DNA from: Candidatus Thorarchaeota archaeon
Lineage (GTDB): Archaea > Asgardarchaeota > Thorarchaeia > Thorarchaeales > Thorarchaeaceae
DNA length: 35,152 nucleotides
NCBI GenBank assembly: GCA_030669595.1
Contig: DAOVDG010000007.1
Location: 1-35,152, forward strand
Direction: 5' to 3'
In this document: in pieces, positions 246-29,080 of the stretch
How positions within the stretch are numbered: the stretch's first letter is position 1
Layout of the letters: each line of letters opens with the position of its first letter
Translations under genes and position numbers: made by a program
The notes under the pieces: model-generated
Told to the model about the DNA's origin: nothing
Database searches by the model: none
Seen by the model: only the letters and a program-made list of their open reading frames with translations

Positions 246-2036
246 TTAGTCAGATGTCACTTGCGGCTCACGGCGTTCATATTCACCTTCACCGCTCACA
301 GATAATCTGATTCTCTTCTTCTCGCCCGGGTTCATCCGGGTGAAGGTCCATGCGACATTGCTGCCTTTGCGGGTTGGTTTTACCGTTGGCACTAGTTCCT
401 CAGGGTCCACTGACACATATTCAAAGCCAGGTGGTATCCAATCTGTTACGACAACATTCTCCGCAGTCACCTCGCCTCGGTTCTCAACAACGAGCACAAC
501 GACATACTCCCCGACGTCCGTACCCTTGTTTATTGCCTTCTTCGTCGAGATACTCCGCTTCTTGTATATGACCTCCAGCTTGTGATCTTCGCTAGCTACC
601 GTAGCTAGTAGTCCTGCGGGGTGTGTGTTGGCAGAGCATAGTATCGGACTGGGATACTCCTTCTCAGGTCTACTCTTCCATGCCATTATGGCATAATTGA
701 TCTTCACACTCTCGCCAGGCGCGAGTTCTCCTACGGAATCCTTGAGATTACTTATCCCAAATGTGAGCTTATGTGTGGTTTCCGGGTCTTGGTTATTCGG
801 TTCTTTGGTAAACTCGAATTCCCCAGTGTACTCCTTCCCGCGAATCCAGATGGAGATATGCTCCTTTAGAGGTGGCATGACATCATCAGGAAGGTTTTCC
901 TCCACAAGAATCTCGTTCAGCTTTGCAGAGCCATTGTTGGTGATTTCAATTGTGACCTCAACGGGCGTTTTATCAAAGCTGTCCACAGCAGGGGGTTCGA
1001 AGGCTTTCGTGTATCCAATTCGTGCTACGGGGATAATCTGGGCAGTCTTCTCGACCGTTCCTAGCACTCTTTTTGTGACAATTCTCATGGGGGTATAGAT
1101 GATATCTTGGCTGCATTTTGGCGGTGACTTGCTTTCAATGTCAAACTTTGCGCTCCAATCCTGACCGGGAGCCATTTCGAACGCAGGGCTCTCGTCTATC
1201 TTTTGTTCTTTCTTACCGCCGCCCTCTGGAACTAGAAACACGGCTGCCTTGTCAAGTCTTATCATTAAATCGCTCTCATTGGAGCACTCTAGTGTGCATT
1301 CCCAGTGATTTGGCTCGGTTTCAGCGTTCTCGATTCCGGTGAGAAATTCTGTCAAGGCGGTCAGATCCGGATCTAGTTCCGAGCGCTGTTGTCCCTCAGC
1401 TCTATAGGTTACAACTATTTCCCCCGCGACTTTCGACTTGACGTCGTCAACCTTACCAATCGCAGTCACAACCAAAGTGGCGCTTTCCTCAGGGTAGATC
1501 ACGAAGTCTTTCCACACAACCTGACTGGTCCCCTCATCTAACTCAGCCTCTCCTGATGACGCGCTCTCGATGGTGACCTCGGAGAGCTCTGGAGGAACAG
1601 TCTTGTTCAATAGGATGTTGTCAATCTGTCCGCCTGAGATATTCTTCAATTGGATTATCATCCTGATCGGATTATCCGCGCCAAAGACATAGGCCCAATG
1701 CGGCTCTTCGGTTCCAACACTGCTACACGTATCATAAGCCTCAGTGAGTGTGAGGAGCGGAGCTTTTACACCAACCGTGTAGTATGTCTCCCACTTTCCA
1801 GCAGCATCAATCTCTCCCCCAGGAAGCGTTTTCTTCCGGAGGCCAGTGCCTTTGCCAGTTTCACCTAGGTGGACCTTGACGTTCCATATCCTACATCGAT
1901 CCGATGGGTTGGTCACTCTTAGAACGCCTGAAACGTCTATATTGTCAAGGCCGCTTTTTCCGCCTAGGGTGATGTTTTCGCTTTCTTCCAAGTCAATGTT
2001 TACAGTTTTATGCTCGCTCAATCGCGGCTCACCCAC
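246..2036 (-). CDS. tandem DUF11/CARDB-like beta-sandwich protein without export signal
   Basis: This is a 596-residue protein starting at GTG 2036. It is made almost entirely of beta-sandwich domains of the DUF11/CARDB kind. The recurring pattern is a strand ending in an Asn-Gly or Asn-Arg-Gly turn, then an acidic 'D/E-x-(I/L)-P' segment, then a Pro-Gly-(E/K)-(S/K) turn before a final alternating strand. The clearest copies are at about residues 115-205, 335-455 and 490-590. Such domains are normally extracellular, yet the N-terminus (MGEPRLSEHK) is hydrophilic and I find no signal peptide, transmembrane helix or C-terminal anchor. It lies 60 nt downstream of the degenerate metallo-beta-lactamase-fold gene on the same strand, probably co-transcribed. 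It may be a cytoplasmic scaffold or leave by a non-classical route. The domain class is fairly clear; the function is unknown. Confidence 0.7.
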   Translation of the reverse strand: MGEPRLSEHKTVNIDLEESENITLGGKSGLDNIDVSGVLRVTNPSDRCRIWNVKVHLGETGKGTGLRKKTLPGGEIDAAGKWETYYTVGVKAPLLTLTEAYDTCSSVGTEEPHWAYVFGADNPIRMIIQLKNISGGQIDNILLNKTVPPELSEVTIESASSGEAELDEGTSQVVWKDFVIYPEESATLVVTAIGKVDDVKSKVAGEIVVTYRAEGQQRSELDPDLTALTEFLTGIENAETEPNHWECTLECSNESDLMIRLDKAAVFLVPEGGGKKEQKIDESPAFEMAPGQDWSAKFDIESKSPPKCSQDIIYTPMRIVTKRVLGTVEKTAQIIPVARIGYTKAFEPPAVDSFDKTPVEVTIEITNNGSAKLNEILVEENLPDDVMPPLKEHISIWIRGKEYTGEFEFTKEPNNQDPETTHKLTFGISNLKDSVGELAPGESVKINYAIMAWKSRPEKEYPSPILCSANTHPAGLLATVASEDHKLEVIYKKRSISTKKAINKGTDVGEYVVVLVVENRGEVTAENVVVTDWIPPGFEYVSVDPEELVPTVKPTRKGSNVAWTFTRMNPGEKKRIRLSVSGEGEYERREPQVTSD

Positions 2037-2997: not shown

Positions 2998-3040
2998 AAT
3001 CGTTTGAATGCTCGTTTGCTAATCTGAAAAGAGGGGTTTG

Positions 3041-4333
3041 ATGCTCGAGAAGATCCTCACCGATAAGTTCAGGAAACTATTGAAAACGGTTCTTGAAGAC
3101 ATTCAGAACCAACAAGACCGTCGAGATGAGGAGGAGTTCGCCAAGGACGAGGTGAGAATCAAGGAGGACCTCCTTGATACCATGGAATCCTACTCGGCTG
3201 ATATTGTACTCGATGAGGACTTCCTCGTTGCAGCTGTTGACGGGTCTGGGACTGAGAACTTTGGCACGCTTGATGATATACGCATCCACCTGCTAAGCAC
3301 TGCAACCGTGATACTTGACACTAACACACAGAAAGGTCCCCCATTTTCGATAATGGAACGAGCGACCTTGGGAGATGAACTTGGAGCACAGCCCTCTCTC
3401 GATATGCATTGGCACTCCGGTGTACGTCACGATGCAAAGAACAAGATGGCCGACAGTCTGACGAACATCTATCCCAACAAGGATACAACTGACTTCGTAA
3501 CACAATTCTTCCGAGATGATTTGGGGCCTCAAGTGAAATCGTTCTCTGACTTGGATAACACTGACTTTGCCCGCTACAAATCCAAACTGGAGAACATGGT
3601 TTCCCTCATCTCAAGGGCCGGATACCTCACCAACCCCGTTGTCCATGACGAACTCAGAACGGTGTCAGAATATGCCGCTATCAGAAAAGTGCTGACTAGC
3701 AAGTTCAAGCCGAAGTTCATCCTTATCGATGGTGCAATGAGTATCTTCATGCACCATGTTCTCAAATATCCCTCGATGCCAAGCGGATTCATGCTGAGAG
3801 AGCTCTGCGCTATGGCCCGGGATAAAGAAGTCATTCTCTGTGCTGTGAGCAAGAATCACACAATACCATTTGCACACAGGATTGCGAAAATGGCAGAAGA
3901 CATATTCGGCGCGGAAGCGAAATGGTTCTGTTTGCTACCATCAACGAACGATCCGAATGGAGGTCTCCACATCATTAGTGACAGGACGTACCTACCGCCA
4001 AAGCTTGCGGTGCCATACCTGTTCAGCTTCTCACGAGACAATAGGCCTTCGCGAATCGATTTCGATCGAATTTGGTGGCTCAAGAACATCTTTGTACGAG
4101 GCGACCCCGCGGCAACAAGAGCGAATGAGAAACAGCTCTTTTGTGACCTAGAGTTCATGTCCAGGGACGCAAGATGGTATGGCTATCCTGTGGCATTAGC
4201 TCTCGCCCATGAGGCATGTAAGCTCAGTTATGAGGACCTTGGGCTGGCACGTGAAGTATACCGGGACGTACTGCGTGCAACTAATCACGACCCCCGGAGG
4301 GCACTTCCTCTTCGGGAAGACTACAACCTTTGA
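3041..4333 (+). CDS. nurA: NurA 5'-3' nuclease
   Basis: NurA is the archaeal nuclease that works with the HerA translocase and Mre11-Rad50 to resect DNA double-strand breaks for recombination. The protein is 430 residues from ATG 3041, chosen over the in-frame TTG at 3038 because GAGG at 3031-3034 gives a 6-nt spacing. The NurA/RNase H-like core is visible: an early acidic motif VAAVDGSG (Asp67), a second strand ILIDGAM (Asp230), a following AVSKNH segment, and a late His-Glu region near the C-terminus. These acidic residues are the expected metal ligands. An N-terminal helical region (1-60) precedes the core. It is the first gene of an operon with herA 13 nt downstream. Family assignment is strong because of motif and context together. 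Confidence 0.9.
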   Translation: MLEKILTDKFRKLLKTVLEDIQNQQDRRDEEEFAKDEVRIKEDLLDTMESYSADIVLDEDFLVAAVDGSGTENFGTLDDIRIHLLSTATVILDTNTQKGPPFSIMERATLGDELGAQPSLDMHWHSGVRHDAKNKMADSLTNIYPNKDTTDFVTQFFRDDLGPQVKSFSDLDNTDFARYKSKLENMVSLISRAGYLTNPVVHDELRTVSEYAAIRKVLTSKFKPKFILIDGAMSIFMHHVLKYPSMPSGFMLRELCAMARDKEVILCAVSKNHTIPFAHRIAKMAEDIFGAEAKWFCLLPSTNDPNGGLHIISDRTYLPPKLAVPYLFSFSRDNRPSRIDFDRIWWLKNIFVRGDPAATRANEKQLFCDLEFMSRDARWYGYPVALALAHEACKLSYEDLGLAREVYRDVLRATNHDPRRALPLREDYNL

Positions 4334-4346
4334 CATGAGATGATAG

Positions 4347-6119
4347 ATGATGGCGTTCAACAAAGACAACCTAGGCGAACTATTCGGAAAAGTCGGTATG
4401 GGCAACCAGACTAACCTAGAAATAATGGGAAACAATCGCGACATTAGTGTCGGCGAGATATTTATGATTACTTCGGAGCGTGATGGTCATGAGCGGGTCT
4501 TTTTCTTCCGAGTTTTAGGACTCCAAAACTATCTGAGACAAGTAGATGACATGAGCCGTGTTGCTGGCACCCTCATGGTGGAAGGCGACGCGTATCTCTC
4601 GGGAATCGAGCGCAACATGCTCTTGGACGTACAGGGCCGAATGCTTGGCTACGCAGAGCGTATTGACAAAAAGTGGGTGTTTCGTTCTCCACGCCGCTTG
4701 CCCGATCATCTTGCGTCTGTGTACAGACCCGTGCCAGGAATATCAGACTCCATCGTCTGCACGATGCTCGAATCTCAGACCGGCGGTGAGATGTATGTCG
4801 GAGACCTCCAAGTAGGCGAAGCAACCCTTGATGTGCCTGTGATGATTCCTTCTAAGTTCCTGCCCATGCACCTTGGGATATTTGGTTCAACAGGATCTGG
4901 AAAGAGCAATCTCATGATGGTTCTCATCAAGTCATTGATTGACACTAATATCACTGCAAGCACAAACCCTGATGGCAATATGCTTCGGATATCTGCCTTC
5001 TGTATCGACCCACATGATGAATTCGCTAAGGGTGTAGACAAATACGGAATCCACCACATAGTCGAAGCCATGAGTCCAACGATTAGGTTAGAGGTCTTGG
5101 GAAACTTCTACTACCTGACAACACATTTGAGAGCCACGCCGCGGGACGTAAAGAAGTACGCCAAGGAAATCAGAATTAAGTGGGATGAGATTCAACCACG
5201 GGATTTGTACTCTATCACTGAATTCACACCCCAGATGAATTCATTCATTGATGCCACGTATGCGCTCAAGCGCGAAGATTGGATTGCCGAGATACTTGAA
5301 ATGGAGAAAGAACCTGAGGGGATGTCTACACCCAAGGGGACAATGAGAGCAGTCCAGCGGAGGCTCCGGTTCCTGAAGCGTTCCCCGATATTCATCAAGG
5401 ATGGAACGTCAATTCTTGATGACATCTATGAGGCGATGGAATCCGGCCGTATTCTAGTTGTGAACACAAGCCTGATGAGTGACACAGAGCAATTCCTCCT
5501 GACAACCGTGGTTACCCGTACCTTGTCCGACATGAGGCGAGCTGTGAAGAGTAGTGGTACCCTGGGAGATTTCGAAAAGCAAGGGTATATGCGACTACCA
5601 AAATCCTTCTTCAATCGAGTCAAGAAAATGGCCCGGAGTTTCTATGGCCGTGGAGGGACAAGTGACTCTGCTGAGGTGAAAAATCCGCGTAATTTACCGG
5701 TCATCCAGATTACAGTAGAGGAGGCTCCTTCAATCCTCAATCCAGAACTTATGAAGGGACGGTCGGTATTCAAGGACATCTCAAGGCAAGGGCGGAAGTT
5801 CAATATCGGACTCCTAGTTGTAAGTCAACAAGTTAGCGTGCTTGACAATGTGATTCTTAGTCAGATGAATACGGAGATTAACCTGCGGATGGGAAATGAA
5901 CGTGAGATTAGGGCGTGCATCGATAATGCAAGTGTCAATATCTCTGGATTTGAGAACGAATTCCGAGTGATGTCACGAGGAGAGGCATTGCTGACTGCCT
6001 CATATCGAGAGCTGCCATTGCCTGTTAGGATTCCGTTGTTTGATACTATCTTCGAACGTGACAAGGACAAGTACAAGAGCAAGAGGTCCAGCAAGAAGAG
6101 TGAGAAGCACATTCTCTGA
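4347..6119 (+). CDS. herA: HerA bipolar DNA translocase/helicase
   Basis: HerA is a hexameric FtsK-like ATPase that threads DNA and drives NurA in end resection. The 590-residue length is within the family's range. An N-terminal HAS-barrel region occupies about residues 25-170. It is followed by a RecA-like core with Walker A GSTGSGKS at 180-187, a Walker B-like strand (FCIDPHDEF) about 45 residues later, a helical insertion, and a late segment with conserved Gln-Gly-Arg and Ser-Gln-Gln that fits the sensor region. The C-terminus is strongly basic (Lys/Ser-rich last 20 residues). The start is one of two adjacent ATGs (4347, 4350), 13 nt after nurA, and mre11 follows by 11 nt. This is the classic archaeal resection operon. 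Confidence 0.93.
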   Translation: MMAFNKDNLGELFGKVGMGNQTNLEIMGNNRDISVGEIFMITSERDGHERVFFFRVLGLQNYLRQVDDMSRVAGTLMVEGDAYLSGIERNMLLDVQGRMLGYAERIDKKWVFRSPRRLPDHLASVYRPVPGISDSIVCTMLESQTGGEMYVGDLQVGEATLDVPVMIPSKFLPMHLGIFGSTGSGKSNLMMVLIKSLIDTNITASTNPDGNMLRISAFCIDPHDEFAKGVDKYGIHHIVEAMSPTIRLEVLGNFYYLTTHLRATPRDVKKYAKEIRIKWDEIQPRDLYSITEFTPQMNSFIDATYALKREDWIAEILEMEKEPEGMSTPKGTMRAVQRRLRFLKRSPIFIKDGTSILDDIYEAMESGRILVVNTSLMSDTEQFLLTTVVTRTLSDMRRAVKSSGTLGDFEKQGYMRLPKSFFNRVKKMARSFYGRGGTSDSAEVKNPRNLPVIQITVEEAPSILNPELMKGRSVFKDISRQGRKFNIGLLVVSQQVSVLDNVILSQMNTEINLRMGNEREIRACIDNASVNISGFENEFRVMSRGEALLTASYRELPLPVRIPLFDTIFERDKDKYKSKRSSKKSEKHIL

Positions 6120-6130
6120 GGAGTAGAGCG

Positions 6131-7441
6131 ATGACTGTAAGAGTTGCGCATATTTCTGACACCCATCTTGGCACGAAGCCCCGGGAAGGTGTTAGGCATA
6201 ACATCTGGGCAGTTGAGATGCGCACCAGAGTCCTCGAGAACGACTTCTATGAGCGTTTCTCAGAGCTGTTTACCAGGATAGCCGAGCTCGATCCGCCGGT
6301 TGATATTGTGGTCCATTCTGGGGACCTCTATAATCAACCTTGGGAGGGCAACCCTACTCAGCCTCCTGTTGTTGCGAGAGAAACAGTCATTACCGTGCTG
6401 AAGAGATTCATTGAGAAAACTAACATACCTGTTCTGATACTGGACGGCAATCATGGCATATACAGGAATCTTGAGGTGTCATTTCTTGATAGCCTGAAGA
6501 TGGCAATTCCCGGTCTGGATGTGGCTACCCAACAGGATCTGAAACATGCATTTCGGGAAGGAAAACCCCTCGTGCGTTCATACGAGAAACTGAATGTCCA
6601 TTGTTTTCCTTTCATTGAGTACAGCGTTCTCGAATCTGCTGGCGCAGTAGTTGCCTTCAACGACTGGATCATAACCCACCAGCTTCCGAACTCTGACCGC
6701 CCATCTATAGCAGTGGCACACGGAATGGATATTGACCGTAGCCTTCACCCAGCCATCTTCAGCATGGGATATGACTACATTGCATTAGGTCACAACCACC
6801 ATCAGCACAAGCATGCAAAGAATGCGTGGTACGCTGGTTCTCCAGAGCGGTGGAGGTTTGATGAAATTAAACACGAGAAAGGATTCCTTGTAATCGACAT
6901 TGAGCGTGGAAAGGATCCGATAGTCACTCCTCAACACATTGTCTTTGCACGACCTGTTTACACCGAGAAGATTGCAATAGAAACCGATGATACGGTTGAA
7001 TCAATCGTTCAAAGGATAGAATCATTGTTCGACGAGAAGAATCTGAAGGGGCCGTGGGACTCGGTTACTGCCGCGCGAGTGCGACTAGTCTTCAAGGGTG
7101 GGTCATCGAGAATCAGTGGGTTCGACCTTAGCCTCGCAATGGAATCATTTCGCATGAAGGTCTTATCACAGGACTCTGAGTACAATATCGTGCAGCTCGT
7201 ATGGACAATAAGGCATCGTGAAATCGACCATGATGAAGCAGCATACCCTGAGATTGAATCCGAGTATCTAATCGAAGACCCCGAGGAGGATTTCCAGGCT
7301 TATTTAAAGACGCTATCACTCGACGAGAAGTACGACCCCAAAACACTAACTCGAATTGCAGTACGTGCTCTTGAGATTGCAGTTGGACGAAGTGGGGAGA
7401 AGCTCACTCTGGATACGATCTCAAAGGAGGAATCTGGGTGA
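6131..7441 (+). CDS. mre11: Mre11 nuclease
   Basis: This is the calcineurin-like phosphoesterase subunit of the Mre11-Rad50 break-processing complex. All phosphoesterase motifs are intact: DTHLG (Asp10, His12), SGDLYNQP (Asp65), DGNHG (Asn107, His108), the AHG motif (His197) and GHNHHQHK (His221, His223), so Mn-dependent nuclease activity is expected. A capping domain fills about 270-400, and the C-terminal helical segment should contact Rad50. The length (436) is typical for archaea. GAGGAG at 6118-6123 overlaps the herA stop and gives 7-nt spacing to ATG 6131. The last codons overlap the rad50 start by 4 nt (GTGA), indicating translational coupling and probably balanced stoichiometry. Confidence 0.95.
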   Translation: MTVRVAHISDTHLGTKPREGVRHNIWAVEMRTRVLENDFYERFSELFTRIAELDPPVDIVVHSGDLYNQPWEGNPTQPPVVARETVITVLKRFIEKTNIPVLILDGNHGIYRNLEVSFLDSLKMAIPGLDVATQQDLKHAFREGKPLVRSYEKLNVHCFPFIEYSVLESAGAVVAFNDWIITHQLPNSDRPSIAVAHGMDIDRSLHPAIFSMGYDYIALGHNHHQHKHAKNAWYAGSPERWRFDEIKHEKGFLVIDIERGKDPIVTPQHIVFARPVYTEKIAIETDDTVESIVQRIESLFDEKNLKGPWDSVTAARVRLVFKGGSSRISGFDLSLAMESFRMKVLSQDSEYNIVQLVWTIRHREIDHDEAAYPEIESEYLIEDPEEDFQAYLKTLSLDEKYDPKTLTRIAVRALEIAVGRSGEKLTLDTISKEESG

Positions 7442-9525
7442 AACTACTTCGTCTCGAATTGAAGAACTTCAAGCCATTTCGAAACCTCGAGCTCCCTGAG
7501 GGAGAGGGTGAATTGCCTGGTGGACTGATACTCATCCGGGGTCCGAACTCGACAGGGAAGTCTTCAATATTCGAAGGAATACTATGGGCTCTGTGGGGGC
7601 CTGATGCCGTACGTCTTACCAATGATGATATCATCAGTTTCACGTCAACTTGGTGCAAAGCGGTCTTGGTCTTTGAGGTTGCTGGGACTAGGTACAAAAT
7701 TGACCGGTCCTATAGTTCTGCAAAAGGAATGGCTGTTGTTTTGTACACGCGAATGGAGGACGCATGGAAGCGTATTGCTAACAAGAGCAAATCCGTGAGC
7801 AAGGAACTCGTGCAGATTCTGAATCTTGAATTAAAACAAGCCTTGGATACGTTGATGGTCCGTCAGGGGGAAGTGGCTGAAATCGCCGATGCCTCTGCCA
7901 CCGATCTAAGAAACCTCATAGTGAGGGTATACAACATCGGGCTATTGGACAAGATGTCAGACCATCTGAAGAACCTCGAATTGGACCTTGAAACACAGAA
8001 TAAAATCCTTCAAGATGACTACATTCGTCCTAAGCATATCGAGGAACAGATTGATGACACAAGGGAAAGAATCGAGGATTATGAACGTAGCCTTGAAAGC
8101 AACGAAGCAGAAGCCGGGGCGATCCAAGGCCATCTGAAGGAAATGCCTGATCCTGAAGGTCTTGAGGCAATACACGTATTAACTCAAGCAGTCGAGAGAA
8201 TGGAAGGAGAGCATAGCTCAAGCGTCCGTCATCGGGATTCTGATCTTGCAGATGCTGGTCTTTCATCGGCTGACGCTGAAGTTGTACGGGCACGTCTGAA
8301 AATTCTCAAGAAAGAAACCAAGCGATATGAATCCAATCGTGAGAAACTCGAGACCGAAACAACTGAAGTTGACCGCGAGCTAGGGGCAATCGCAGCAACC
8401 AAGACGGATCTCAGTGAGAAGATCGTGACTCTTGAAGGTGTTTCTGTAGATGGCGATTCAGGCGTCACTGAATGTCCAACCTGCGCAAAGCCCCTTTCCG
8501 CTGAAGAGCGCAAGAATCTACTAGTAGAATACCGCCAGACACTGAAACAGGACGAAGAAAAAGCCATGACACTCAAGGGTCGTCGTGTGGAGGTGTCGAA
8601 TGAGGTCCGTGGTTTCGAGGAGCACTTGTCTGATATTTCTAAGGCGTATGATGCAGTGTGCCGTATCAAAGAGAAACAGAAGGATGTTGATGCAGCCGAG
8701 AAACGCCTTGAGAAGCAGCGGGCGAAGCTCTTGGATGCCATCAAGAAAGCTGGGGTGACTGACATTGAGTCGCTCCTCAAGAAGCATGGAGCGAAGAGCG
8801 TCCTTGATCTTCAGCGAAGACTTGACGTACTCTCCACAAAGCTCGGTGAAATCGTGGGCCAATGCGACTCCTTCAGAAAATTCATCGATAGGGAGCAAGA
8901 CACCGTTAAGGAATTGGAAGCCAAATCCGTGAAGATGAGTGAGCTCGGTGCAGAGATAGACTCGTTGAAGAGTCTGAACGAGCATGCCAAGTATGTTAGA
9001 CTAAAGCTAGTCAGCGGCTTTGTGGCTGATTACGTGGTGCAAAAGCGATTGTTGGGCATTATCAAGGGTGCTACAAACGAATACGTTCGCGCGTTTACAA
9101 ACGATCAATATGCTGGAATTGACCTAGTTCCAACAGCTGCGCGAGGGCGTTCTGGCGCGGGATTGGCATTGAAGATACACGATCAGCGAGACAATGCCAT
9201 AAAGAAGACAACACAACTGAGCTTTGGTGACAGAACTGCCGTCAGTCTAGGGCTTCGTCTGGGCATTAGTAGGACGATGAGCTCTATTCGGCCGCTAAGG
9301 GACAGTCCTTCGCTTGCTCCTCGGATTCGATGTGTTATGCTTGACGAACCGCTTGGAGGCCTTGACACGAACCGCAGAGCCTCCGTTGTTAGTAACTTGG
9401 TGAACGACCAGAGCTTCGAACAAATTTTGCTGATAACGCACACAGACATTCAAGGCTGGGATAGTGTACCAGCCATCGAGGTTTCTAAGAGTGGATCATC
9501 TGCCACTGCGAAACTTCTCATGTAA
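7438..9525 (+). CDS. rad50: Rad50 SMC-like ATPase
   Basis: Rad50 is the ABC/SMC ATPase partner of Mre11. Seen in the protein: Walker A GPNSTGKSS (residues 35-43), coiled coil from about 165, a zinc hook Cys-Pro-Thr-Cys at 346-349, a return coiled coil to about 520, a signature motif LSFGD (594-598), Walker B VMLDEP with Asp636-Glu637, a D-loop Gly-Gly-Leu-Asp, and a switch His in LITHTD. All catalytic parts are present. At 695 residues it is shorter than most archaeal Rad50 proteins, the difference lying in the coiled-coil arms. GTG 7438 overlaps the mre11 stop and is preceded by AAGGAGG (7424-7430) at 7-nt spacing, the strongest ribosome site in the operon. Confidence 0.95.
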   Translation: MKLLRLELKNFKPFRNLELPEGEGELPGGLILIRGPNSTGKSSIFEGILWALWGPDAVRLTNDDIISFTSTWCKAVLVFEVAGTRYKIDRSYSSAKGMAVVLYTRMEDAWKRIANKSKSVSKELVQILNLELKQALDTLMVRQGEVAEIADASATDLRNLIVRVYNIGLLDKMSDHLKNLELDLETQNKILQDDYIRPKHIEEQIDDTRERIEDYERSLESNEAEAGAIQGHLKEMPDPEGLEAIHVLTQAVERMEGEHSSSVRHRDSDLADAGLSSADAEVVRARLKILKKETKRYESNREKLETETTEVDRELGAIAATKTDLSEKIVTLEGVSVDGDSGVTECPTCAKPLSAEERKNLLVEYRQTLKQDEEKAMTLKGRRVEVSNEVRGFEEHLSDISKAYDAVCRIKEKQKDVDAAEKRLEKQRAKLLDAIKKAGVTDIESLLKKHGAKSVLDLQRRLDVLSTKLGEIVGQCDSFRKFIDREQDTVKELEAKSVKMSELGAEIDSLKSLNEHAKYVRLKLVSGFVADYVVQKRLLGIIKGATNEYVRAFTNDQYAGIDLVPTAARGRSGAGLALKIHDQRDNAIKKTTQLSFGDRTAVSLGLRLGISRTMSSIRPLRDSPSLAPRIRCVMLDEPLGGLDTNRRASVVSNLVNDQSFEQILLITHTDIQGWDSVPAIEVSKSGSSATAKLLM

Positions 9526-11224: not shown

Positions 11225-12391
11225 CTACTGCCCGAGATCTTTGAGTTCTTTCTTCTTCACTTTTAGATGCTTCTTCAAGTTCTGCAGACGAGTATCGAGT
11301 TTCTTGACCTGTTCATCATAGGTTTCATTCGCCATTTTTCCTGAGGAGTGCCTTTGGTCGACGTGATCTTTCAGCTGTTGTATGGACTTGACTTCTTGCT
11401 GGAGTGCCTTGATGTCCGCCCGTAAATCTACTTCTTGATTCTCTTCTAGAGTCTTGAATTGCTTGGTTGGTATCATTACTCCAAGCTGCTGTTGTGTCTT
11501 CTCTGCAAAATCCTGGAACTGGTTGCGCAGCATCTCTACGTTGCCGTCGACTCCTCTGACTTGCTCTCCTACTTTTTCAATGTCTTTCTGAAGGTCAAAT
11601 ACCGCGTTGACGAGCCTTCGAAGAGTACCCTCCAGCTCGTCGAGCTTTGCAGGTGAAGCCTCTGTAGCGGGCGTACCTTTCTTGGACTTGGCCTTGGCAA
11701 CCTTGCTTGGTTTGGCCAATCTGACATCTCCACTGAGCCATTTTATTGCATTGATTGCAAATGTCTTATTTCCAGCATGCTTTAGCCCGCCCCCTTTTCG
11801 GAATATCTCGTAGCTGCCGGAGCAGATGACTCGCCCCTTCCCATATTCGGCGGCGGCAATTACGGGTTGATTTGCTGGGTCCGCCATTTCAGATGAAGAT
11901 GCCAATACCACTGCGCTCCCTGACACCTTCAGTGAGCACCCAGACGGGTATAGAAGGTCTTGAACATCTTCAGTGCACGGATTTGCAATAAGATTGCTGA
12001 CAAACGGCATTGTGGGCAAACCGGCGTTATTTCTCTCATCCTTTACAGCTGTATTGTCAAACTCAATGCCAAAGGTCTTGGACAGCTTGCTGAGATTGTT
12101 CATTAGGCCACGGTCTCCGCCCGACAGTGAGAGCAGGAACAGCCCACCGCCAGCTTTTACATAGTGCGTTAGAACATCTATCTCTGCAGGCCGCAGCTTG
12201 GAGCTGTTTGGACATCCAAAGACCAACACCTCTGCATCTTTGATTTTCTTGGCCAGTATCATGAACTCCGTATATGGTTCTGCGTCGAAGTCATTGTCTG
12301 TGAGAAGATTACCAAGTGTAGAATATGTGGTGTCTAGTCTTCCACGTTCGTTCTGTGTTTGGTCAAAGAAGACCCTTATTCTCCTGCTCAA
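11225..12391 (-). CDS. GIFT-like (IFT52 N-terminal-like) domain protein with coiled-coil tail
   Basis: The protein has 388 residues and starts at TTG 12391, preceded by AGGTGG at 6-nt spacing. Residues 1-225 form a glutamine-amidotransferase-like Rossmann domain of the DUF4350/GldG/GIFT type: opening RVFFDQTQNERGRL, an 'LVFGCPNSSKLRPAEID' strand-turn-helix, a 'YVKAGGGLFLLSLSGGDRG' glycine-rich turn, a 'FGIEFDNTAVKDE' segment and a late 'EYGKGRVICSGS'. This order matches the N-terminal GIFT domain of the ciliary protein IFT52 and related bacterial ABC-transport accessory proteins. A Lys/Ala/Ser-rich linker (about 226-255) leads to a long coiled coil (255-388) with heptad-like Leu/Val spacing. 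No catalytic Cys-His-Glu triad is apparent, so a binding role is likely. The gene is convergent with the glycosyltransferase (3-nt gap). Confidence 0.65.
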   Translation of the reverse strand: MSRRIRVFFDQTQNERGRLDTTYSTLGNLLTDNDFDAEPYTEFMILAKKIKDAEVLVFGCPNSSKLRPAEIDVLTHYVKAGGGLFLLSLSGGDRGLMNNLSKLSKTFGIEFDNTAVKDERNNAGLPTMPFVSNLIANPCTEDVQDLLYPSGCSLKVSGSAVVLASSSEMADPANQPVIAAAEYGKGRVICSGSYEIFRKGGGLKHAGNKTFAINAIKWLSGDVRLAKPSKVAKAKSKKGTPATEASPAKLDELEGTLRRLVNAVFDLQKDIEKVGEQVRGVDGNVEMLRNQFQDFAEKTQQQLGVMIPTKQFKTLEENQEVDLRADIKALQQEVKSIQQLKDHVDQRHSSGKMANETYDEQVKKLDTRLQNLKKHLKVKKKELKDLGQ

Positions 12392-17546: not shown

Positions 17547-18419
17547 TCACTGAGTCGCTCCACAATAGGGACAAACCTTGATTCCCATTCTTATCGTTCG
17601 ACCACAAGAGAAACAGAAGCTAGGTGACGAACTATCATCTCTGACATCATCATTGAAGGGACTTAGCTCTCCCTGCGTGAATAGCGCACCTAGACCTTCT
17701 ACCGCCTCATCTGTTCTGCAACCGCACGAGGACTGGGTTGAAACGTCACAGGAACTAGAGCGCATTTCATCCATCAGCTTGTCCTTACGATTGCCTTCAG
17801 AGTATGGAATTGCCGTGGTCAGGTCTGAGTAGGGATCAGATTGACTAGAGCTCCGATAGGACCTGTAGTCCCGTCTTGCAGCAGGCTCGACATCTCTTTG
17901 ATTGAGTGCGCTATCACGCCTGTCGAAGTCTCTTCGATAATCATCCGACCCGTATCCTCTGTCGACTGCCGGTCTGTTTGCAGCGATGCCTCGAACATCG
18001 TAGGGTCGCGCATCATCTGCCGATGTGAGGCCTCTAGCAGCGTCCAAAAATCTGCAATGAGCATCGCCTTTCAGGTTCTCATATTCTTCTGTGGTGAGGC
18101 CTAGGACTTCCAGAGCTCTATCTCTCTCAGCACATCGTTTTGACAACGGGCAGCAGAAAGCCAAGCTCCCATGACAGAGGGATGCCATAGCTCTATCCTT
18201 TGCAGATTTGAAGATGGGCGTGATCCGGTGGCGACCTAGCACCAAGGCATCCCCAACCGACCGAAGTTCTGTGTATCCGCTCTGAGCGAGTGCTTCAACA
18301 ATCTCTCGGGCTGGATAGGCTCTCCCTTCTATGATTACATGACCCTCAGTCCTGTCAAGTCGGACGGGCCTTTCAGTGCTCTTGTTTCCCTCGTATGTGG
18401 GATATCTCGTAGTGGCCAC
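17547..18419 (-). CDS. Cys-rich protein with Arg/Asp/Tyr-rich linker and C-terminal zinc ribbon
   Basis: This 290-residue protein of unknown function starts at GTG 18419; an in-frame stop lies two codons upstream, so nothing longer is possible. Three parts are visible. Residues 25-130 are a folded domain with Cys82, Cys89, Cys90, Cys96, His121 and Cys122, a possible metal or Fe-S site. Residues 135-215 are a low-complexity linker rich in Arg, Asp, Tyr and Ser with repeated YRR/DRR/DYR elements. Residues 265-290 form a zinc ribbon with Cys269/272 and Cys283/286; three more Cys (224, 232, 234) precede it. The linker resembles disordered, phase-separation-prone segments and the Tyr-rich linker of the protein at 27258-28832. 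No operon partner; divergent from the small membrane protein. Confidence 0.7.
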   Translation of the reverse strand: MATTRYPTYEGNKSTERPVRLDRTEGHVIIEGRAYPAREIVEALAQSGYTELRSVGDALVLGRHRITPIFKSAKDRAMASLCHGSLAFCCPLSKRCAERDRALEVLGLTTEEYENLKGDAHCRFLDAARGLTSADDARPYDVRGIAANRPAVDRGYGSDDYRRDFDRRDSALNQRDVEPAARRDYRSYRSSSQSDPYSDLTTAIPYSEGNRKDKLMDEMRSSSCDVSTQSSCGCRTDEAVEGLGALFTQGELSPFNDDVRDDSSSPSFCFSCGRTIRMGIKVCPYCGATQ

Positions 18420-23700: not shown

Positions 23701-24477
23701 ATGAAGGGATGCGAGCCGATGCAGGAGCGACTTCGAACTGAGATATTCGCCTCAATTGCAACGTTGGACCAGCTGAAGATGATATACGACCTAGGTGCTG
23801 TAGATATTCGAACATTCGAGCGAGAATCAGCGGCACTGGTTCAAGAAGTGAAGTCCAACATCGGTGAGCTGAAACGCCTCGGGACGGATATCTTTCGATT
23901 CCTTGACCACGAGAGAATCCCTGAAAGCTTTCCTAACGCAATGAGCATGTTGGACCTATCTGTGCAATCCATAAGGTCTGTTCCGCAAGGTCTGACCCTT
24001 GACGAATTCTATGACTACATTGGGCTGGCAATTCTTGACGTAGCCACAGTCCACGCTTCGAAGGGTCTCATGGGTCTCGCAGAGCTGATTGTCGAGGTGG
24101 TCAAACGACTTCCTCAGTTTAAGTCAGTAAGCTACAGTGATGTTATCGAGGCAGTGAACCGAGTCGCCGAACACGGTCTAATACCCGGCATACGAACTCT
24201 GAGAGGAGGCGTTAAGGTCGTGGAGCTTCGTCCCCTTGAACTTCGTCGAGACCAATCTGATGTAATTAACTTGGCGGCTTTGAAGGGGTACGTTTCGATT
24301 GAAGAGGTTATGATGAACCTGAAGTGGTCAGAAGACCACGCTCGTCAGGTTCTCACTAGTCTAGTGGATGCAGGCATGGCTGTTGCCGATATCAGATTCA
24401 GCACTGGTGGACGATATTACTTCCCGGGCTTGAGATCAAGAGATGATTCAGAAACTGGAGGCACTTCCGAAGCCTGA
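23701..24477 (+). CDS. ESCRT-I/II fusion: Vps28-like N-terminal domain plus EAP30 (Vps22/36-like) domain
   Basis: The protein has 258 residues. Residues 10-85 match the Vps28 N-terminal helical domain: 'EIFASIATLDQLKMIYD', an Asp-Ile-Arg-Thr-Phe-Glu-Arg-Glu turn like the 'y-t-x-e' of Vps28, then a long helix and 'FLDHERIPESFPNAMSML', equivalent to the 'F-x-x-Y-x-x-x-C-p-x-A' helix. Residues 95-245 match the C-terminal tandem winged helices of EAP30 proteins: 'SKGLMGLAELIVEVVKR', 'NRVAEHGLIPGIRTLRGGVKVVEL', and the closing 'GRYYFPGL' that ends the last wing in Vps22/Vps36. In eukaryotes these sit in ESCRT-I and ESCRT-II; here one chain would bridge them. Start: ATG 23701, or ATG 23719, which has AAGGGA upstream. 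Convergent with the Vps25-like gene (12-nt gap). Confidence 0.88.
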   Translation: MKGCEPMQERLRTEIFASIATLDQLKMIYDLGAVDIRTFERESAALVQEVKSNIGELKRLGTDIFRFLDHERIPESFPNAMSMLDLSVQSIRSVPQGLTLDEFYDYIGLAILDVATVHASKGLMGLAELIVEVVKRLPQFKSVSYSDVIEAVNRVAEHGLIPGIRTLRGGVKVVELRPLELRRDQSDVINLAALKGYVSIEEVMMNLKWSEDHARQVLTSLVDAGMAVADIRFSTGGRYYFPGLRSRDDSETGGTSEA

Positions 24478-24489
24478 ATCGATAATCGA

Positions 24490-25218
24490 CTAGACATTTA
24501 CAACAATAGCCCCAGCTTTCTTATCAACCCACTTGGCAAATCCCCGCTCAACAAGTATAGCCATTATCCCGTGGATGTCCTCTTCCGGAAGTCTCGAAAA
24601 ATCCTGTTCTGCTTCTTGGATGACTAGTGACTTCACATCGAGACGAAGTATGCCTGTGTCCAGAGCCCATCTGTAGACCAAATCCGCCCACTCCCCCAGT
24701 GGTCTCCAGTATACTCTGAGTTGTTCTCTATTCCGATCAAGCCATGCAGCAACGTCTTTCCCAACTAACGAGTCTCCGATTGATCTAAAGGCTTTGACTT
24801 TCCCAAGTATGTCCTTGAATGGGGGTTTCGAAATGAATGCTGAAACAGAGAGAACATGAATCTTCTCAAATTCTGCCCATTCAAGCAGGAAGTCTCCCCA
24901 TTCTTCAGTCCAGAGAACCAAGTCCTGCGACCTCGTGGGAATGTTGTACATCCACTCAGCTTCTCCAATGTTTCCCCATCGCGGCACGATTTCGGTTACG
25001 GCGGCCGCTTCAGTGGCCATCATTTGTTCTGGTTCAACGACAGCAGCTTCCATAGTGTCAGTTGTATAGGGTCCTTCTTCCACCTTGACGACAATCTCTG
25101 GTATGTGTGCGGAATCATCACTAGCAGTAGTCTGCTCCATAACCACCGGGGACTCGGCCGCATCTTTGACAGGTTTTTCTGTCTTTTTCTTCTCTCGCTG
25201 TCGCTCCTTGACACCCAC
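24490..25218 (-). CDS. ESCRT-II Vps25-like protein with disordered N-terminal tail
   Basis: The protein has 242 residues from GTG 25218. Residues 1-80 are low-complexity (a Lys/Glu-rich start, then acidic, Ala/Val/Thr/Met-rich) and probably disordered. Residues 85-165 and 170-242 form two winged helices. The first carries 'NIPTRSQDLVLWTEEW' and a 'KPPF' turn, like the Vps25 Pro-Pro-Phe-Phe region and TRQ-x-QL-x-x-W helix. The second begins 'WRPLGEWADLVYRWALDTG', very close to the human Vps25 segment WRRPEEWGKLIYQWVSRSG, and ends with a helix-wing pair. In eukaryotes Vps25 links ESCRT-II to the ESCRT-III subunit Vps20. The gene starts 3 nt after the vps4 stop on the same strand, so the two are surely co-transcribed and translationally coupled. 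Confidence 0.88.
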   Translation of the reverse strand: MGVKERQREKKKTEKPVKDAAESPVVMEQTTASDDSAHIPEIVVKVEEGPYTTDTMEAAVVEPEQMMATEAAAVTEIVPRWGNIGEAEWMYNIPTRSQDLVLWTEEWGDFLLEWAEFEKIHVLSVSAFISKPPFKDILGKVKAFRSIGDSLVGKDVAAWLDRNREQLRVYWRPLGEWADLVYRWALDTGILRLDVKSLVIQEAEQDFSRLPEEDIHGIMAILVERGFAKWVDKKAGAIVVNV

Positions 25219-25221
25219 GCC

Positions 25222-26451
25222 CTACGACCCCTCCGCCCAGTCAATGTACTTCTTGATATCTTCTGGGGATGTCGCTGGCCTGATATTCTCAATGGCTCCG
25301 AGAAAGTCCTCTCTTGAAACAGGGCGAAGGTTCAGTATCTTCGCTTCCTCTTCCATTCTTCCTGTCTTTTGAAGGTCTCTTATGGGCTCCATTGCTGCCT
25401 CTCTACAGACCACACCGATGTCCCTTCCACTATATCCCTCACTAAGGCTCGCAAGCTCCTCAAAGTCCACTTCTGATGCTAACTCTACATCATCGATATG
25501 GATTTTGAAAATCCCTTTTCGACCTCTTTTGTCTGGCAGTGGTACATGGATTCGCTTCTCGAAACGGGACCTCAAAGCAAAGTCTAATTCCCACGGGAGA
25601 TTGGTTGCTCCAATTAGCGTAATTCTCTCATTCTGGTCGCTTGCGAGACCCTGCAACTCTGTTAACAACTGAGTCTTTAGCCGCCTTTCGCCTCCGACAT
25701 CATCCCCGGACCTTGAAACGCCAATCGAGTCCAGCTCATCCATGAAGATGATTGCCGGTTGGTTCTTTCTTGCCATCTCAAAGAGGCTCATGACTAGACG
25801 TTCAGATTCGCCAAGCCATTTACTCACTATATTGGCGGCTGATACGTTGAAGAATGTGGCGTTGACCTCCGCTGCAACTGCTTTCGCTATCAATGTCTTC
25901 CCACAGCCCGCAGGACCGTACAACAGGATGCCCCTCCACGGCTGCCTCGCTTTTCCTTTGAATAACTCTGGATGTTTCATCGGTGCCAGTATCGCATCGT
26001 AGATGGCTTGTTTTGCATCGTCGAGACCGGCGACCTCAGACAGATTGACGTTGGGGCGCTCTGTGACAATTGTATCCGCAATCATCTCTTGGAGCCTTTT
26101 GGTATCCTCGTCTGGCTCGGGAGTGGCATCAGGTCGCTTACTAACAGCAGACTCCGTGATTGCTCCTATATCGCTCTTCAGAGGAGTCCGAAGGCCATCA
26201 ACTGGTCCACGGGCTTTCTTCTTGATTCCCGAGAGATATCGGACTCTATCAACGCACTCCTGGGCTCGTGCGAAGTAATGCTTTCGAACAGAAGGGAGGG
26301 ACGTAGACTTTGAGAGCTTGATGAGGATCTTGCTGGCTCGCAGATAGCGTTGGCAAGCCTCCTTCTTCATCCCTCTATTGTCCAATTCTATCGCTTTGTC
26401 GAGTAGCTTCTTGAGTCCAATGTCTAGTCTGTCGCTGCCTGATCCTGACAT
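25222..26451 (-). CDS. vps4: Vps4/CdvC-like AAA ATPase with MIT domain
   Basis: Vps4 disassembles ESCRT-III polymers by pulling single subunits through its hexameric pore, powering membrane scission. The 409-residue protein has an MIT three-helix domain (about 8-80), a linker (80-135), and the AAA cassette with Walker A GPAGCGKT (179-186), a pore loop 'VSKWLGESERL', Walker B IIFMDE (234-239), and the 'LRSRFEKRIHVPLP' arginine-finger region. The tail 'RPATSPEDIKKYIDWAEGS' is the Vps4-type C-terminal helix (RP-x-(V/T)-S-x-x-D-(L/I)-x-x-Y-x-x-W), which separates it from Cdc48 or proteasomal ATPases. The leader from the predicted promoter is short. First gene of a two-gene unit with the Vps25-like gene; divergent from the ESCRT-III gene. 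Confidence 0.95.
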   Translation of the reverse strand: MSGSGSDRLDIGLKKLLDKAIELDNRGMKKEACQRYLRASKILIKLSKSTSLPSVRKHYFARAQECVDRVRYLSGIKKKARGPVDGLRTPLKSDIGAITESAVSKRPDATPEPDEDTKRLQEMIADTIVTERPNVNLSEVAGLDDAKQAIYDAILAPMKHPELFKGKARQPWRGILLYGPAGCGKTLIAKAVAAEVNATFFNVSAANIVSKWLGESERLVMSLFEMARKNQPAIIFMDELDSIGVSRSGDDVGGERRLKTQLLTELQGLASDQNERITLIGATNLPWELDFALRSRFEKRIHVPLPDKRGRKGIFKIHIDDVELASEVDFEELASLSEGYSGRDIGVVCREAAMEPIRDLQKTGRMEEEAKILNLRPVSREDFLGAIENIRPATSPEDIKKYIDWAEGS

Positions 26452-26519: not shown

Positions 26520-27257
26520 ATGGAAAATCAACCATTCCCCCAAGGTTTCTCTCTTCGGTTCGGTACTACGCCGGGGCTACGAAAGTTTAAACGCGGATTT
26601 GCATCTCCGGTTGTTGGGTCACAACCTGCGGACTTGGTGAGGCACTTGGGTACAATAAGAAAGGCTTTCTCTTGGGGTCGGAAGAAACCCGACATTGGAG
26701 AAGTCAAGAGCGAGCTGCGAATATTAGCGAAGCAGCTGGAACGACAACGGAACAAGCTCGAGAATGAGGAGCGGGGGACTAGGAGCAGGGCTGTGCGTGC
26801 ACGCAAGGCCGGTCAGGCGGACGCATTTCGAACCTATGCGACCGAGATGGTCAGGTTTCGTAGGTATGCGCTTTCTGTTGATAGGTCACGGCTCAACATC
26901 CTCAAGATTCTGGCCCATATCAACCGTGCGCAGACAGCTGCCAAGACGAATCGCGCCATGGATGAGGTCGCTAAGATCCTTGGGTTGCTGGGCAATGCAA
27001 CCGATGCCACGAAGGTAGTCGCGAATGTTGATGAGATAGCTCATCGCTTAGAAGAATTCGAAATCGAGAGTGGTATCGCCGATGATGCATTTCATGCCAC
27101 GATGCCGGAGATCACAACCGATGACTTGGCTGCTGCCATGCATGAGATAGACAAAGAGGCAGGATTAGCAGAAGCCTTGACTGACACTAGGCCTGCTAGC
27201 CAGACCGATAAACTCGAAGAAGCTATCAAATCCCTGGAGAGCGAGCTTGGTATCTAA
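26520..27257 (+). CDS. ESCRT-III (Snf7/CHMP/CdvB-like) protein
   Basis: The 245-residue protein would polymerise on membranes to drive constriction or scission. After a basic, Pro/Phe-rich N-terminal segment (1-55) comes the ESCRT-III core: a long helical hairpin at about 58-130 rich in Lys/Arg with the pattern 'LRILAKQLERQRNKLENEER' then 'FRTYATEMVRFRRYALSVDRSRL', followed by shorter helices (130-175). The rest is acidic, as in autoinhibitory C-termini. The end, 'LEEAIKSLESELGI', is a MIM1-like amphipathic helix (L-x-x-x-I-x-x-L-x-x-x-L) suited to the Vps4 MIT domain encoded next door. I cannot assign it to the Vps2/24/46 or Vps20/32/60 branch. The stop abuts the stop of the next, convergent gene without a spare base. 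Confidence 0.88.
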   Translation: MENQPFPQGFSLRFGTTPGLRKFKRGFASPVVGSQPADLVRHLGTIRKAFSWGRKKPDIGEVKSELRILAKQLERQRNKLENEERGTRSRAVRARKAGQADAFRTYATEMVRFRRYALSVDRSRLNILKILAHINRAQTAAKTNRAMDEVAKILGLLGNATDATKVVANVDEIAHRLEEFEIESGIADDAFHATMPEITTDDLAAAMHEIDKEAGLAEALTDTRPASQTDKLEEAIKSLESELGI

Positions 27258-28832
27258 TTACCAGTAGTAGCCTGCGTCTCTTGAAGATTTTCTTTCAATT
27301 TCCTTTCTTGTGTAGTATGAGTCACGCATCAGTCCCTTGTACCGTCTGATGAAATCCTCTGGAACGAGCCGTCCCCCCCTGAAGAGATGAACAGTATCAC
27401 GTATTGCGTTGTCCAAAGAAGATGCATTTCTCCTGAGTGTTTCAATCTCTGCCGCCATCTCGCCTCTTACACCTGGATACTGCTGATATGCCCCTCTATC
27501 CATTGTTCTCCCCGGATTGTCCTTGAATTGAGCCCCTTGACGATAGCTTCCGTAATCGTAGTGGGCATATCTGGGTTGGGGACTTGATGGCTCAGCATAG
27601 TACGCTCCAGCCGGCGGATTCGGATATGTCATCCTGGATCTCGATCTATTTCCTCCCGTATTCAAAGAATAGATTAGATCTTCAATCCTGAGTCTGACAT
27701 CGCTAACGCTAACACTTGCCTGTTCTAGTTTCCGTACCTTCTGCAGGTCTGTTTGCATATACCTGTCAAACTTCTTGGCAATCTCAACGTAATCCGGTAG
27801 TACTTTCTTCGTCTGCTCGCTGCAGGAAACCTTCACTTCGCCTTGTTTCATCTTCAGGACCATTCTCTTCCTGAATCTACCATCCTCCTCGATTGAGGTC
27901 AGGTAGAGAAGTGGGAAATCGAAGATAATCTCGGTCTTCTTGCGAACAACTCCTGTCTGCGCAATGAAGACGAGCCTCCTGTTCGTGATGAAGAGCGTAC
28001 CAGTTGCCTTGTCATGCTTGAGGAAATCGCTCCCTGTGACTTTGATTTTAGGTAGCGCACAGACGGGCAGTTCGTTGATTGAGAGTTCTGCATGCTTATA
28101 GAAACTCGAGAACTGTGACCGGTAATAGTTCAATCCGTCCAGCTGCTTCACGATGTCCTTCACGGTAAGATCGGCTTCACTCAATGCTTCATCCACAGAG
28201 TGCTTGTATTGGTTGACCAGATGCGTCACCCTGTTTGTAACACCTTCAATGAACGGAAACTGGGAGGTGGACCAAGTAGTAGTGTTCATCAAACCCTTTG
28301 TTTCAGCTGCGATTTGCCTGGCTAACATGTCTGCTTGGTTACCTATCCGATTCTTGATCGCAGGCAGCTCCTCCTGTATGTTCTGAATCTTGTCATCCAA
28401 CCACCTGTAGTGTAGGAAGTTAGCCATCCTCAATGAAACTAGCAGGCGCTTTGCTCCAATTAGTCTATTATTGAGTTCTCTCAGTTTTGTGTGTCCATAC
28501 TGCAAGCTGTTGATTGCCTGCCTGAGTTCTTGTGCGATGCTCCTTTGCTTAACATCCACCAAGATGGTGCGGGTAGAGTGACACTCGGGACATATCTCCT
28601 CCATCCGCCTACCTACACTCAAATTCTCAGACCCACAGTCACTGCATTCCTCAAATCTTTGCCCGGGCAGAGGAGTGCCCAGTATACTATGGCAATCCTT
28701 GCACACGTATGACGATGAAAACTTTGTTTCGAGACAATCCGAGCAGAGCACTGCTCCACAATCTTCACACAGGTGAGTAGCACCTTTACTCTTGCATGCT
28801 CTGCATATGCGATTTGAGGAATCCTCAGTCAA
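27258..28832 (-). CDS. multidomain ESCRT-associated protein: FYVE/B-box-like finger, zinc ribbon, GRAM/PH-like domain, steadiness box
   Basis: The protein has 524 residues from TTG 28832, chosen because GGAGGT lies exactly 6 nt upstream; an upstream TTG (28871) lacks a ribosome site. Order of parts: eight Cys at 10/13, 22/25, 30/33 and 44/47, with the C-x2-C...C-x2-C-x4-C-x2-C...C-x2-C pattern of FYVE/B-box fingers; a zinc ribbon (63/66, 81/84); helical, coil-prone region 95-245; a GRAM/PH-like domain (about 260-360, with 'GTLFITNRRLVFIAQ'); a Pro/Tyr/Arg/Gln-rich linker (392-457); and a C-terminal helical hairpin (458-515) with 'LDNAIRDTV', an RGG turn, 'EDFIRRYKGLMRD' and a basic end. That hairpin parallels the Tsg101 steadiness box (NAIEDTI, RRG turn, DVFLKHVRLLSRK). 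It could bind membranes and nucleate ESCRT-I. No UEV domain. Confidence 0.7.
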   Translation of the reverse strand: MTEDSSNRICRACKSKGATHLCEDCGAVLCSDCLETKFSSSYVCKDCHSILGTPLPGQRFEECSDCGSENLSVGRRMEEICPECHSTRTILVDVKQRSIAQELRQAINSLQYGHTKLRELNNRLIGAKRLLVSLRMANFLHYRWLDDKIQNIQEELPAIKNRIGNQADMLARQIAAETKGLMNTTTWSTSQFPFIEGVTNRVTHLVNQYKHSVDEALSEADLTVKDIVKQLDGLNYYRSQFSSFYKHAELSINELPVCALPKIKVTGSDFLKHDKATGTLFITNRRLVFIAQTGVVRKKTEIIFDFPLLYLTSIEEDGRFRKRMVLKMKQGEVKVSCSEQTKKVLPDYVEIAKKFDRYMQTDLQKVRKLEQASVSVSDVRLRIEDLIYSLNTGGNRSRSRMTYPNPPAGAYYAEPSSPQPRYAHYDYGSYRQGAQFKDNPGRTMDRGAYQQYPGVRGEMAAEIETLRRNASSLDNAIRDTVHLFRGGRLVPEDFIRRYKGLMRDSYYTRKEIERKSSRDAGYYW

Positions 28833-29080
28833 CTGGGTACCTCCGGTCAATGGCCCATCTCCCTTGTCCAAGCGGTCCAGAAAGACCCGTGTATTATCCC
28901 CAAAACACCAGCAACAGCTGCAAGAAACTTGACACTCCCAGACATATTAACCAACATTCGACTGTAGGTCCACAGTCATTCATGATTCGGTGTGAGAGCG
29001 TCTCGAATAGTGCAAGTTCCGTATCCGAAACTAGTTAAACCGCAATACTACGCCTGAGCAAAGACCCAGGGGCGATTACT

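Follow-up and report, generated by a model that had tools for sequence, protein, structure and literature searches.

A standing question in eukaryote origins is how ESCRT-I and ESCRT-II were recruited before sorting made use of ubiquitin tags. The window analyzed here, a stretch of 35,152 nucleotides from a Candidatus Thorarchaeota archaeon, raises this question at a single gene beside a set of ESCRT genes, and we asked what the product of that gene does there. Our answer is that it is probably an ESCRT-I-like membrane adaptor of the Asgard Znr_CC_PH_SB family, whose PH domain would sit on lipid and whose steadiness box would sit on a Vps28-type hairpin of a Vps22 protein encoded nearby. Comparisons were made with the 47 genomes (13 genera) of the window's class and with 181 other Asgard genomes.

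The longest open reading frame of the gene covers 27258-28871 on the minus strand, and residues are numbered from 28871 throughout (13 are subtracted for the 524-aa form). The start is most likely the TTG at 28832, as TTG, GTG or ATG occupies the same position in 37/37 Thorarchaeota homologues and a GGAGG-type motif lies about 6 nt 5′ of it in 32 of the 37. The TTG at 28871 was rejected in favor of the one at 28832 because the conserved upstream "GG" is the translated GGAGG site, and a plus-strand reading of 27258-28832 runs into many stops. The coordinates 27258-28832 of the preliminary description are therefore correct, start codon included, and the strand, which it left unstated, is minus. 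The 37 relatives of the gene reach 93% identity and are labeled Thorarchaeota (35), Lokiarchaeota (1) and "archaeon" (1). The gene has the following features.

27258..28832 (-): coding sequence for zinc fingers, coiled coil, PH domain and steadiness box, 524 aa from TTG
28839..28844 (-): ribosome-binding site GGAGGT, 6 nt 5′ of the TTG, with a GGAGG-type motif kept across the class
28689..28805 (-): FYVE/B-box-type cross-brace finger with eight Cys (C23-C60, plus H61), without RRHHCR
28581..28646 (-): zinc ribbon C76/C79...C94/C97, invariant in 21 members
28092..28559 (-): long coiled-coil helices, residues 105-260 (AlphaFold2)
27762..28076 (-): PH/GLUE/GRAM-like domain, residues 266-370, net positive (AlphaFold2, Foldseek, Pfam)
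27468..27656 (-): disordered Tyr/Pro-rich linker, residues 406-468 (AlphaFold2)
27273..27467 (-): C-terminal helical hairpin, putative Vps23/Tsg101-type steadiness box, residues 469-533

Twelve Cys are invariant among the 21 aligned class members, eight in the cross-brace (Cys23/26/35/38/43/46/57/60) and four in the ribbon (Cys76/79/94/97). The cross-brace pattern C-x2-C-x8-C-x2-C-x4-C-x2-C-x10-C-x2-C, with variable spacing allowed, is present in 73/74 family members and the RRHHCR-type phosphoinositide motif in 0/74, so both the eight Cys in FYVE/B-box order without that motif and the zinc ribbon are as first described. The finger shares with FYVE proteins (EEA1, Hrs/Vps27, ZFYVE19/ANCHR) the C-x2-C-x4-C-x2-C core and the cross-brace spacing but lacks the RRHHCR motif by which they bind PI3P. 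In Pfam, zf-B_box matched the window protein at E 1.2e-4, under its cut-off, and FYVE at E 3.6, and the best PDB sequence match of the family profile, which is not strongly significant, was ZFYVE19 (E 0.0083). Because the phosphoinositide motif is missing, PI3P binding in the manner of FYVE was rejected, and the PH domain is left as the only credible membrane reader. The finger could instead be the RING/B-box part of an E3, with the protein acting as a ligase at ESCRT. The family profile has weak matches to RING domains, e.g., CBL and RNF4 (E 0.13-0.6), but the finger is an all-Cys cross-brace of FYVE-type spacing (a loose RING pattern also occurs in 4/74 members) and ubiquitin was detected in 0/47 genomes of the class, and we give the ligase reading hardly any credence.

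Beyond the fingers, AlphaFold2 predicted long helices at 105-253 and a complete PH fold at 269-368, with seven strands and a C-terminal helix (mean pLDDT 75). Foldseek matched this fold in the PDB to the human EAP45 GLUE domain (2hth, TMt 0.58), the Vps36 PH domain (2cay, 0.52-0.54) and the MTMR2 PH-GRAM domain (5gnh), with Lam6 also among the PH-type matches, which bears out the GRAM/PH-like segment of the preliminary description. Pfam matches were all weak, with bPH_3 in 17/21 class members (0.02 in the window protein) and GRAM in 9/21. The net charge of the domain is +7 in the window protein (class mean +5.5), and the domain may bind lipid. Vps36/EAP45 of ESCRT-II shares the PH/GLUE-like fold, and yeast Vps36 likewise joins PH and zinc fingers, but there the fingers are inserted into the PH domain, whereas in the Thorarchaeota protein they are N-terminal; the latter also has a steadiness box in place of winged helices. 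The segment that follows is predicted to be disordered at 407-468 and is Tyr/Pro-rich as reported: these two residues make up 27% of it but 8% of the full chain. A PTAP-like late motif in this linker was considered and rejected, as its PSSP is confined to the window's genus and is not conserved.

This architecture is known. Makarova et al. 2024 (PMC10936438) described it as Znr_CC_PH_SB / Znr_PH_CC_SB (Asgard cog.011556), regarded it as a likely part of ESCRT-I and expected membrane association of the PH domain, so that both the architecture and the proposal of an ESCRT-I role at membranes were already published. As in cog.011556, a single chain carries the zinc fingers, coiled coil, PH domain and steadiness box, the spread is Asgard-wide and ESCRT genes adjoin; the identity rests on architecture, and no essential difference was seen. 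Those authors count three zinc ribbons, two of which make up the one FYVE/B-box-type cross-brace of the Thorarchaeota protein. Our additions are the counts of synteny and of absences over the class, the choice of start codon and, for the partner, a structural match. The gene and domain order of the preliminary description are confirmed and its interpretation as a whole is partly supported; none of the contrary outcomes that it named, as far as these could be looked for by computation, was obtained.

The ESCRT-I assignment depends on the C-terminus, which AlphaFold2 folds into a hairpin of two helices (469-498 and 504-533) with the conserved core E-x-F-x-R-R-Y-x-x-L. When compared with the PDB, a profile of 28 Asgard C-termini of the family aligned over the whole hairpin with yeast Vps23 chains at E 9e-8 to 8e-7 and with human TSG101 at E 1e-4, a value that phycobilisome (ApcE) matches in the same search mark as unsafe alone. 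The ApcE matches are short, cover part of the hairpin only and were taken as noise, whereas those to Vps23 are about three orders stronger and span it entirely. Pfam Vps23_core matched 24 of the 28 C-termini (best 3.8e-7). Whole-genome searches with PF09454 exceeded the curated cut-off at homologue C-termini in three genomes (G117, G118 and G128) and gave no match on the window's own genome, so the steadiness-box assignment needs the family profile. A profile limited to Thorarchaeota C-termini ranked Vps23 third at E 0.71, and the assignment therefore needs Asgard relatives as well. A profile of non-Thorarchaeota C-termini matched the window protein in register at 475-529 (whole-protein E 4e-4, best domain 0.009; hhalign E 2e-6), and the similarity of this hairpin is more than chance. 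The Tsg101-like steadiness box proposed in the preliminary description thus holds as a probable assignment, good at the level of the family and indirect for the window sequence. Vps23/TSG101 likewise ends, after a coiled coil, in a steadiness box matching Vps23_core, but carries a UEV domain that reads ubiquitin and PTAP, in place of which the Thorarchaeota protein has the PH domain and zinc fingers; Pfam found no UEV domain in it, as had been noted from the letters.

A hairpin of this kind also brings in the main rival explanation, a CdvA-like division anchor, in which the PH domain would hold the membrane in place of the PRC barrel and the hairpin would contact ESCRT-III directly, with no ESCRT-I/II step. 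CdvA is laid out alike, with a domain that binds membrane, a coiled coil and a steadiness-box-related hairpin (PMC10936438), and the gene described here abuts that of ESCRT-III. The N-terminus of CdvA is a PRC barrel, whereas the Thorarchaeota protein has a PH fold and no PRC match in Pfam. Pfam CdvA matched 2/28 C-termini (best 4e-4), against 24/28 for Vps23_core, and the conserved block also includes ESCRT-II genes, so that an ESCRT-II step is available. We consider the division anchor unlikely and retain the ESCRT-I-like adaptor, for which the neighboring genes are the next line of evidence.

26520..27257 (+): ESCRT-III (Snf7), convergent neighbor (PF03357, 7.6e-12)
25222..26451 (-): Vps4 (MIT-AAA-Vps4_C; Pfam)
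24490..25218 (-): Vps25 of ESCRT-II (PF05871, 1.5e-12)
23938..24390 (+): EAP30/Vps22 winged-helix part of the gene 23701-24477 (Pfam EAP30, 2.6e-13)
23701..23877 (+): Vps28-headpiece-like N-terminal hairpin of the same Vps22-like protein, candidate partner of the steadiness box

The preliminary description called the gene abutting. It does meet the ESCRT-III gene base-to-base at their ends, but the two are convergent and not co-directed, and hence are neighbors and not one transcript or operon. The order Znr, ESCRT-III, Vps4-Vps25, Vps22 recurs in the same orientation at 31 of 37 loci of the class; of the six exceptions, five are truncated at contig ends. Homologues in other Asgard families also lie near ESCRT genes, e.g., at L105, L107, L113 and L115, and near ESCRT-III alone at L100, L102, L103 and L119-L121, so the expectation that homologues would stand beside ESCRT genes was supported for Thorarchaeota and some other Asgard families. 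At the loci checked of one large family (f20), single-sequence phmmer searches detected no ESCRT neighbors. That result fits another reading, a membrane scaffold or cargo receptor tied to ESCRT by gene order only, with fingers for cargo or other factors and a hairpin that homodimerizes, as do the weak resemblance of the hairpin to the steadiness box within Thorarchaeota alone and the many other helical hairpins with weak scores. The conserved hairpin core, the family-level homology to Vps23 and the synteny kept in the class and several other families argue against a scaffold of this kind, which strikes us as quite improbable.

For the ESCRT-I-like adaptor, the candidate partner is the protein encoded at 23701, which the preliminary description called Vps28-like. 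It is an EAP30/Vps22 protein, with the EAP30 match above and no VPS28 Pfam match over the cut-off, and not Vps28 itself; the part of the claim that stands is a Vps28-type N-terminal hairpin, seen by structure. A structure search with its model found human ESCRT-II Vps22 (6e-9). Chains from the human ESCRT-I headpiece were matched too, with 82-87 residues aligned (TMt 0.65-0.73, rmsd 1.7-1.8, E 0.05-0.1), and were identified by length: at 100-105 residues they agree with the VPS28 construct (122 aa), whereas those of TSG101 (81) and VPS37B (71) are too short. By sequence the Vps28-type hairpin is suggestive (E 0.21-0.40). It is plausible that this hairpin is the partner of the steadiness box, and a Vps22 with a Vps28-type hairpin is in line with the Asgard Vps22 fused to a steadiness box that has been published (PMC10936438). 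Hairpins with weak matches to the profile are common in the Thorarchaeota genomes examined, and therefore other partners exist.

We suggest that the PH/GLUE-like domain would dock on acidic lipid headgroups, while the coiled coil and flexible linker would keep the C-terminal Vps23-type steadiness box off the membrane. The steadiness box would pair with the N-terminal Vps28-type hairpin of the Vps22-like protein, which would bring in Vps25; Vps25 would start ESCRT-III (26520), and Vps4 would recycle the ESCRT-III polymer. The N-terminal zinc fingers may bind protein, either cargo or in dimerization, and in Thorarchaeota the recruitment would proceed without ubiquitin.

The distribution of the gene bears on this last point. 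It is present in 46 of the 47 class genomes, and the family in 152/228 Asgard genomes and 43/62 genera. Ubiquitin, which Pfam failed to detect in the class, was found in 165/181 other Asgard genomes, and its absence from Thorarchaeota was already noted by Hatano et al. (PMC9192718). Pfam likewise found UEV in 0/47 Thorarchaeota genomes vs 53/181 others, and stand-alone VPS28 over its cut-off in 0/47 vs 142/181; these absences are provisional, because diverged members escape Pfam, as is suggested by how few of the other genomes show UEV. Sub-threshold PF03997 "VPS28" matches in three Thorarchaeota genomes are coiled-coil proteins of 417-434 aa and not Vps28. Hatano et al. also described a freestanding Thorarchaeota steadiness-box protein that may bind Vps28 (PMC9192718), so the set of ESCRT-I parts may exceed what Pfam sees. 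Small Thorarchaeota proteins (118-200 aa) that contain a single steadiness-box-like hairpin or a pair of them (L155:681-1283 and L156:438-794) are candidate freestanding partners. The recruitment route was first described as simpler than the eukaryotic one, and this fits Thorarchaeota only: elsewhere in Asgard the PH-steadiness box protein and UEV occur together in 22 genomes, and the protein is therefore no general substitute for UEV. A wider and more tentative possibility is that Thorarchaeota have a lipid-addressed ESCRT without ubiquitin, UEV or stand-alone Vps28, in which ESCRT-I would consist of one PH-steadiness box protein and connect directly with ESCRT-II by way of the Vps28 headpiece that Vps22 carries as a fusion, a compact ESCRT-I/II that could be derived or ancestral. 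An Asgard class with ESCRT-I, -II, -III and Vps4-type genes, and with none detected of ubiquitin, UEV or a separate Vps28, offers a direct test of lipid-only recruitment with few recombinant proteins.

Several other genes in the window were noted. About 15-20 kb from the ESCRT block, 11225-12391 (-) encodes 388 aa whose N-terminal part is an IFT52 GIFT domain (Pfam 5.8e-16, over the cut-off) and whose C-terminal part is a coiled coil; in the literature searched we found no mention of IFT52 together with Asgard. The hairpin of this coiled coil matches the steadiness-box profile weakly (E 0.035), and matches lying about as far from the gene in relatives reach 2.5e-5. The gene at 17547-18419 (-) encodes 290 aa with a C-terminal zinc ribbon and a methanogenesis marker 9 domain match (7.7e-7, under the cut-off), and that at 246-2036 (-) encodes 596 aa in which a DUF11 domain and, weakly (0.0021), an adaptor-complex medium subunit were matched. 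Judged by open reading frame translations only, 3038-9525 (+) resembles an archaeal NurA/HerA/Mre11/Rad50 repair operon.
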